DNA of 5,655 bases from Candidatus Altarchaeum sp. (lineage in GTDB: Archaea > Altiarchaeota > Altiarchaeia > Altiarchaeales > Altiarchaeaceae): NCBI GenBank assembly GCA_018260755.1, contig JAGTWP010000061.1:1-5655 (forward strand), in the 5' to 3' direction. This document shows positions 3,818 to 5,655 of this stretch, piece by piece (positions within the stretch are counted from its first letter, which is position 1; every line of letters begins with the position of its first letter). The notes under the pieces were generated by a model. The model saw nothing but the letters and a program-made list of their open reading frames with translations. It had not been told where the DNA came from and did not search any database. A program made the position numbers and the translations under genes.

Positions 3818-4873
3818 TTATTCTATCATCTCATTGACCTTCTCTATTTCAAATTTATCATAATTCAGCACATTTCTTCCGAATTTCAAAAGTTTTATTT
3901 TTACCTCATCGTTGTCCTTATAAAATAGCGGATTTGCAACAACAACCGACCTGAATGCAAAAAATACTGACATCACTTCAAAAATTTCGTAATCATTCGT
4001 AAGTTTAAGATATTCATCCATAAAAATTTTTGTAAGTTCCATGAATTCACAGTCAAGTTTTCCGTACTTTCTTATGCTGTAATGGAGGTAATTCATAATA
4101 AAACAGGATATATCATCGGCTGGCTCTCCGTACTCCCCTCTGCTTCTATCAAGCACGGTCAAATTATCTTTGTCAAACCATATATTTCCGGGATGAAAGT
4201 CCCCGTGAATAACCGCCAGTCGCTTAAATTTATCCTTAATTTTTCCGCCTCTTTTAACTGCTTCACTCGCCATATCTGTTAAATTTATTCCCAAAAAAAT
4301 TTCCTTGTCATATAGGTCAATTATACCCATTAAGCATTCCCCGTGTCCGATTGTATCCCTTATCTTTCTCCTGTACAACGATTTTGCAACATCTTCTTTA
4401 AGATTTGGTTTTTTGTGAATTGATGCTAAAAATTTTGCTAAAAATTTTGCCTTTTCTCTGTCTTTATCGTCAATTCCTTTTTCAAAGATTTTATTTAAAT
4501 CATTGAAATAACTTTCTCCCTTTGCCTCTTCCATCAATAAATAGAACTCATACGCATTTCCGATTGAAATTAACCTGTCTTTACTCTCCCCGACAACATC
4601 AGTCGCTTTAACATGATTTTGCAATTTATTGTAGGTTGAATTTGCGAGCAGTAAAACCTGCGCCCTGTCGGATGGATAATCGTGACCGAAATTTAGCCCT
4701 TCCAATCCCTTCATTACAATCCGCTTTTCTACTTTCCTTCCGTTTTCATCGGCAATAAATTTTATCAGATATCCTGTTCCATGCACTCCCGAACCTAATT
4801 CCTTTATTTCCAAGACATCTGCCGACTTAAATTTATCTGCGAGATAGCCCTGAATTTTTTCTTTTGTCATCAT
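3818..4873 (-). CDS. APH-family phosphotransferase (kinase fold)
   Basis: This 351-aa protein of the aminoglycoside phosphotransferase/choline kinase superfamily should transfer a phosphate from ATP to a small molecule; the substrate cannot be read from the sequence. It has a nucleotide loop ELGSGVHGTGYLIKF (25-39), a probable ATP-binding Lys in IVMKG (K55) and a hinge-like YLLMEEAKGES (111-121). The helix FLASIH (148-153) matches the LLxxLH position of the family. The catalytic loop is HGDFHPGN (223-230; D225 base, N230 metal), and the metal-binding aspartate is D242 in LDRSRGEYGEPADD, with the second Asp pair at 253-254. The catalytic residues are intact, so an active enzyme is expected. 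ATG 4873 (CAATACAAAATG) is preferred over the adjacent ATG 4870 because of its ACAAA context. No resistance role should be assumed, as many archaeal members act in metabolism. It is divergent from the polymerase gene. Confidence 0.88.
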   Translation of the reverse strand: MMTKEKIQGYLADKFKSADVLEIKELGSGVHGTGYLIKFIADENGRKVEKRIVMKGLEGLNFGHDYPSDRAQVLLLANSTYNKLQNHVKATDVVGESKDRLISIGNAYEFYLLMEEAKGESYFNDLNKIFEKGIDDKDREKAKFLAKFLASIHKKPNLKEDVAKSLYRRKIRDTIGHGECLMGIIDLYDKEIFLGINLTDMASEAVKRGGKIKDKFKRLAVIHGDFHPGNIWFDKDNLTVLDRSRGEYGEPADDISCFIMNYLHYSIRKYGKLDCEFMELTKIFMDEYLKLTNDYEIFEVMSVFFAFRSVVVANPLFYKDNDEVKIKLLKFGRNVLNYDKFEIEKVNEMIE

Positions 4874-4997: not shown

Positions 4998-5655
4998 ATG
5001 GAAACAAAAACCCTGCTTGACATTGACTATATAATTGAAAATAATACTCCTGTAATTCGCCTGTTTTACAAAATCATTGCTCCCGAAAAAAATGAATCGG
5101 CGAAGGAAGTTGCCTACGTTCGAAACTTTATACCCTATTTTTACGCCGTTCCAAAAGAGAATATTGAGGAACTTGAAAACGAGATAAAACAACAAAATTT
5201 AGCAGTAATAACAAGAACCGAAAGAGTAAAAAAATTCTACCAAAACAATGAAATCCCGGTCTTAAAAATTTATACGAATTTACCTCATAACATAAGAGAA
5301 ATAAGAGAAGTGAGCAGAAATTTGCCAGCTTGTAAGGAGACATACGAAGACAATATCCCCTTTACAGAAAGATATAGCATAAATACTGGCACAATATTTA
5401 TAGAAAGCGATAAAAATTTAATAATCGGTGCTTTTGACATAGAAACATATAATCCGAAGATAATGTCACGGCCAAGTATTGACCCGATTTTAGCAATAAG
5501 TTATGCTGAGGGCAGATTAGGGGGCAATGACAGGAATAATATGAACATTAATAAAAATAACAACATTAATAACACAAATAATAACAATACAAATAACAAT
5601 ACAAATAACACAAATAATAACAATACAAATAACAATACAAATAACACAAATAATA
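4998..5655 (+). CDS. DNA polymerase, family B, archaeal type (5' part)
   Basis: The first 219 codons of a replicative-type family B DNA polymerase, cut by the window end (full archaeal enzymes are about 750-900 aa). Residues 6-25 (LLDIDYIIENNTPVIRLFYK) match the conserved N-terminal strand pair. IPYFYAV (45-51) and PVLKIY (87-92) correspond to the archaeal template-uracil pocket, including the Pro-Tyr and Val positions. EDNIPFTERY (117-126) and AFDIETYN (145-152) follow; D147 and E149 are the Exo I metal ligands of the 3'-5' proofreading nuclease. ILAISYAEG (164-172) is the next exonuclease strand. From about residue 177 the frame turns into an Asn/Thr tract with no counterpart in typical archaeal polymerases. 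ATG 4998 is the start because homology begins at once and no upstream in-frame extension is needed. No Shine-Dalgarno site is visible (CTTATAAATTTTATGG). Confidence 0.92.
   Translation, partial: METKTLLDIDYIIENNTPVIRLFYKIIAPEKNESAKEVAYVRNFIPYFYAVPKENIEELENEIKQQNLAVITRTERVKKFYQNNEIPVLKIYTNLPHNIREIREVSRNLPACKETYEDNIPFTERYSINTGTIFIESDKNLIIGAFDIETYNPKIMSRPSIDPILAISYAEGRLGGNDRNNMNINKNNNINNTNNNNTNNNTNNTNNNNTNNNTNNTNN
5568..5655 (+). repeat. 36-bp in-frame tandem repeat encoding Asn/Thr tract
   Basis: Units 5568-5603 and 5604-5639 are identical, and 5640-5655 begins a third. Each 36-bp unit is 12 codons, read as NNTNNNNTNNNT in the polymerase frame. The bases use only A, T and C on the plus strand (AAT, AAC, ACA codons). 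Before it, 5529-5567 is also Asn-rich but not periodic. Exact identity at synonymous sites indicates recent expansion by slippage or recombination. The unit is a multiple of three, so copy-number change keeps the frame. The true extent beyond the window is unknown. Confidence 0.9.

Follow-up and report, generated by a model that had tools for sequence, protein, structure and literature searches.

The window, that is, the whole stretch of DNA analyzed here (5,655 nucleotides; bases 1 to 5655 of contig C18 of genome G000), forms part of a 7,981-base scaffold in a 1.32-Mb draft genome of Candidatus Altarchaeum, the genus of Ca. A. hamiconexum, whose habitat is cold sulfidic springs at about 11 to 12 degrees C (PMC4500143). 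We compared it with the other members of a set of four Altarchaeum genomes, comprising the window's own genome (G000), G001, CG2_30_32_3053 (G002, here CG2_30), and the isolate HURL_140 (G003). The right-hand end of the window carries the 5' part of a family B DNA polymerase (PolB) gene, with an APH-type phosphotransferase gene as its neighbor (Table 1). The PolB gene of CG2_30 likewise has an APH-type neighbor, which supports the order of the scaffold. At the opposite end, positions 1 to 131 contain two copies of an AT-rich block (about 50 bp; AGGAAATTTAATAATATTTAATATATAAGGACTAATTAATT...) that lie ~81 bp apart, upstream of a membrane-protein gene that begins at 163. Positions 1478 to 2479 encode a membrane protein built from DUF350 repeats, which Pfam matched in three stretches.

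Table 1. Features around the 5' part of the polymerase gene (window coordinates).
Feature	Position	Strand	Remark
APH-type phosphotransferase gene	3818..4873	-	Divergent neighbor of the PolB gene
Family B DNA polymerase, 5' part (N-terminal domain and start of exonuclease domain)	4998..5655	+	Gene runs past the window; stop at 7738
Exo I motif FDIET	5433..5447	+	Read in frame
Beta-strand ILAISYAE, leading into the hairpin turn	5487..5510	+	Modeled as strand 162-172 in the HURL_140 orthologue
Degenerate Asn-rich lead-in (NDRNNMNINKNNNI)	5526..5567	+	Resembles the DINNN repeats of the HURL_140 orthologue
Exact 36-bp tandem array	5568..5655	+	AAT, AAC, and ACA codons only, except at the first edge; scaffold gap cuts in at 5656

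Within the window, the frame passes from FDIET through ILAISYAE and the Asn-rich lead-in to the tandem array. Position 5655 is the last base before a scaffold gap of 108 N, after which the repeat resumes (5764 to 5896). The initial annotation, which saw nothing beyond 5655, had proposed a family B polymerase and had suggested following the frame further. On the same scaffold, the frame leaves the repeat through AAYKKVFTWKK and continues into Exo II (YNGDNYDF), Exo III (YSLKD), SLYPSI, and YGDTDS before reaching the stop. Thus, all three motifs of the 3'-5' exonuclease are present (Exo I within the window, Exo II and Exo III downstream), as are both of the family B polymerase-domain motifs. The downstream part matched the Pfam families DNA_pol_B (PF00136; E value, 5.5e-87) and DNA_pol_B_exo1 (PF03104; E value, 1.7e-18), so that the assignment to family B held. 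The Asp and Glu residues of Exo I are invariant in 34 aligned archaeal PolB proteins (D145 and E147 in A2 numbering), and over the 5' part in the window, identity with the genes of the two sister species amounts to 85% and 71%. The reading frame is open on either side of the gap, and for both halves to share one frame the gap must really be 1 mod 3 long, so that 108 N is an estimate of its length. Given such a gap, and judging from frame and motifs, the gene appears to be a complete and intact euryarchaeal-type PolB of Candidatus Altarchaeum. A truncated gene or pseudogene was considered and rejected, since the frame reaches a normal stop beyond the gap.

Given that the gap falls within the array and that its N count is one base out of frame, an assembly artefact has to be weighed, either as unrelated contigs joined at a low-complexity end or as a chimeric array. 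However, the repeat and its codon register are identical on both sides of the gap, and a single sister gene closely resembles both flanks, in the same order. The upstream neighbor is shared with CG2_30, and at the site in question the independent metagenome-assembled genome HURL_140 contains an Asn insert that is resolved in full. We therefore consider an artefact very improbable.

An Asn/Thr array at the tip of the exonuclease hairpin

The exact 36-bp periodicity extends over 88 bp (about 2.4 copies), while Tandem Repeats Finder (TRF) reported 2.9 copies of the same period at 5550 to 5655, having extended the array back into the lead-in. The in-frame repeat unit is a rotation of NNTNNNNTNNNT, and on the far side of the gap one ATA codon stands beside AAT, AAC, and ACA. 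The visible insert amounts to 43 residues before the gap and 44 after it, and the copy number of the array is a lower bound because the assembly gap lies within the repeat. On either side of the gap, the longest run of Asn and Thr comprised 29 residues, compared with a maximum of 6 in 500 dinucleotide-preserving shuffles of the gene without the array. In the visible insert, which contains N, T, and a few I, K, M, D, and R only, we found neither the splicing-domain motifs nor the junction residues of inteins. Frame reading, TRF, and the exact periodicity thus agree with the initial annotation that an exact 36-bp Asn/Thr-coding repeat follows Exo I, and its view that the expansion is recent is supported as well.

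Near-perfect repeats of this kind are expected to be unstable, and the array could in principle act as a contingency locus, in which slippage would switch PolB on and off or set the mutation rate. However, the units seen are multiples of three bases, so that a change in copy number would keep the frame and leave the gene on, and we regard such a role as most improbable.

The insert occupies the tip of the beta-hairpin that follows Exo I in the exonuclease domain. Between DPIL and the point where the next strand ends, 32 archaeal PolB proteins from outside the genus have 20 to 22 residues. In CG2_30 this segment comprises 32 residues and no repeat; in HURL_140 it comprises 48, among them three DINNN-type units and, at the end, a short NNTNNTT stretch; and in the window's genome it has at least 113 residues plus the gap. 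Hence, the loop is longer than the class norm in all three Altarchaeum PolB proteins in which the region is resolved (G001 was left out of the comparison, its contig ending about 33 codons into the gene), and the loop differs in length between species, the initial annotation having suggested variability between cells. The NNTNNT end of the HURL_140 loop looks, at the sequence level, like the seed of the unit expanded in the window's genome, and a small Asn/Thr seed was probably already present in the ancestor shared with HURL_140.

An AlphaFold2 model of the HURL_140 orthologue, from the N terminus to YGD, had a mean pLDDT of 87.7, and its top structural matches were the Thermococcus and Pyrococcus polymerases 9N-7, Tgo, KOD, and P. 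abyssi PolB. Disorder was modeled on the shorter insert of this orthologue (the 48-residue segment), where residues 175 to 195 had pLDDT values of <50 and the flanking strands (162 to 172 and 199 to 204) were confident. Together with the alignment of the loop, the model bears out the earlier placement of the insert in a turn between two strands of the exonuclease domain. On these grounds, the Asn-dominated insert in this conserved domain is best seen as a predicted disordered protrusion at the hairpin tip of an otherwise normal exonuclease fold. Compared with the Thermococcus and Pyrococcus enzymes (9N-7, Tgo, KOD, and Pfu; PDB 1qht), the N-terminal and exonuclease fold, the motifs, and the hairpin are alike, but in Altarchaeum the hairpin turn is replaced by at least 90 extra residues, mostly Asn and Thr. 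To judge from this insert, PolB can accommodate about 100 additional residues in the hairpin behind Exo I.

Asparagine repeats in other genes of the genus

Counting PolB, five loci with Asn-rich repeats were found in the genus, several of them with species-specific lengths. A flavoprotein similar to geranylgeranyl reductases contains about 75 Asn codons in the window's genome, the stretch NNNSNNSNNNN in G001, and none in CG2_30. At one and the same site in the first intein of NrdD, there are six Asn residues in the window's genome and 44 in CG2_30. The linker of a Hef-type helicase-nuclease has SN and NKDET/NKGET repeats in the window's genome, PNGEY and KEGED repeats in CG2_30, and ten Asn residues in G001, and it is short in HURL_140 (L207 to L210). 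Lastly, a membrane protein on contig C30 ends in a C-terminal poly-Asn tail, with an assembly gap within the tail. The expansion is both locus specific and lineage specific, since the window's genome combines a long PolB loop with a short NrdD tract, while CG2_30 shows the reverse. With regard to NrdD, we also observed that the gene holds more than one intein in the window's genome (L197, on C62) and in CG2_30 (L194, on C39), at partly different sites, and that it is the first intein that contains the variable Asn tract.

Tracts of 12 N(N/T)N codons were found in three of the four Altarchaeum genomes versus none of the 25 other genomes of the class, part of the matches in G001 being noncoding AAT arrays. 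One such region of G001 (C51, 3086 to 3142) is a pure (AAT)n array that lies outside the listed genes. Among coding tracts, those of the flavoprotein and the NrdD intein mix AAT and AAC, and pure AAT occurs in the Hef linker of G001 and in the C30 tail. As a composition control, we searched for eight consecutive AAR codons, which gave no match in three of the four genomes and, in CG2_30, only the poly-A end of a contig and a single short AAG/AAA repeat. Such a nearly empty control indicates that AT-richness alone does not yield long codon runs. The coding arrays that were found read as Asn (or Asn with Thr or Ser) and not as the Ile, Leu, or Tyr of other (AAT)n frames, so selection at least filters what is kept.

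The situation resembles that of Plasmodium falciparum and Dictyostelium, AT-rich genomes in which Asn loops of species-variable length occur in proteins of many functions (PMC3749963); here, in contrast, the organism is an archaeon, and the known proteins are a handful that came from pattern searches. Asn has been described as underrepresented in the low-complexity regions of prokaryotes (PMC6821194); an older survey described it as abundant in the simple-sequence proteins of low-GC prokaryotes (PMC1524752). No description of Asn repeats from Altiarchaea turned up in the literature searched. The polymerase family is already known, and the insert too is of a known type, an Asn-rich low-complexity loop; what it adds is the occurrence in an archaeal PolB, together with a pattern that repeats in several proteins of the genus. 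Long Asn repeats within conserved enzymes have been regarded as a specialty of a few eukaryotes, and the same loop in unexpanded, half-grown, and giant form in close archaeal species offers a natural series for studying the origin of such repeats, the limits of what a protein can bear, and any later gain of function.

A bolder reading would make Altarchaeum an archaeal counterpart of P. falciparum, with ongoing growth of Asn repeats in core enzymes (PolB, Hef, the NrdD intein, and the lipid reductase) driven by unusual repeat instability, a proposal that we put forward tentatively and consider rather unlikely. With some genomes of the set being incomplete, the repair protein NucS/EndoMS had no match above the Pfam family cutoff in any of the four Altarchaeum genomes and had matches in 13 of the 25 others of the class. 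Loss of NucS as the cause was not retained other than as a lead, given that the remaining 12 of those 25 genomes are likewise without a match and none of them has arrays.

Tolerated expansion versus function

We consider it likely that the PolB insert is an in-frame repeat expansion in an AT-rich genome that is tolerated without having a dedicated function in the polymerase. The hairpin tip would have grown recently as a 12/36-bp unit coding for Asn and Thr expanded in tandem and in frame, most likely through replication slippage or unequal recombination. Short AT-rich units would duplicate in frame and be kept where their product is a soluble loop, and this loop would be tolerated because it is hydrophilic, presumably disordered, and away from the catalytic motifs. 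The PolB expansion would then be one of several in unrelated proteins of the genus. Slippage and unequal crossover have also been proposed as the source of the Asn repeats of P. falciparum, in which a 28-Asn repeat of Rpn6 was deleted with no detected effect (PMC3749963); by analogy, this deletion may serve as an experimental parallel for a tolerated loop in PolB.

Directly seen are the sequence and position of the insert, the intact motifs, the differences in length between species, the recurrence in other genes, and the lack of long tracts in the other genomes of the class. The near-neutrality of the expansion we infer, because the identity of the units blurs selection on the protein with duplication of the DNA; the units are almost identical, with too few independent changes for a third-position selection test to be informative. 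Two observations count against this reading, namely, that every resolved Altarchaeum loop exceeds the class norm and that the coding arrays are filtered toward Asn.

The initial annotation had suggested instead that the loop tunes proofreading or binds a partner. An adaptive loop, modulating how PolB proofreads, partitions strands, or binds partners, would fit its location within the exonuclease domain, a short distance from Exo I in the sequence, and the fact that all three resolved Altarchaeum loops exceed the class norm. However, neither its sequence nor its length is conserved between sister species, the repeat of HURL_140, the closest relative whose loop is resolved, being different and shorter and that of CG2_30 missing, while a proofreading function would predict conservation of the loop. 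Moreover, unrelated proteins, and an intein as well, have undergone this kind of expansion, and the loop is modeled as disordered. A role in proofreading or partner binding is thus unsupported, and we judge an adaptive loop in general to be improbable. Along similar lines, the description of the enzyme as an essential replicative polymerase is unproven. With PolD also encoded in the window's genome, PolB is not necessarily essential; in Thermococcus kodakarensis the enzyme is dispensable, and in some other archaea it is essential (PMC4432273).

The preferred reading, tolerated in-frame expansion, can be set beside another in-frame insertion in Altarchaeum PolB, the intein at YGD|TDS in CG2_30 and HURL_140. 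Unlike that self-splicing element, the visible Asn/Thr insert has no intein features and sits in the exonuclease domain. The open frames that include the YGD|TDS intein encode 1,275 amino acids in HURL_140 (L039) and 1,207 in CG2_30 (L040), and the PolB of the window's genome is intein free.
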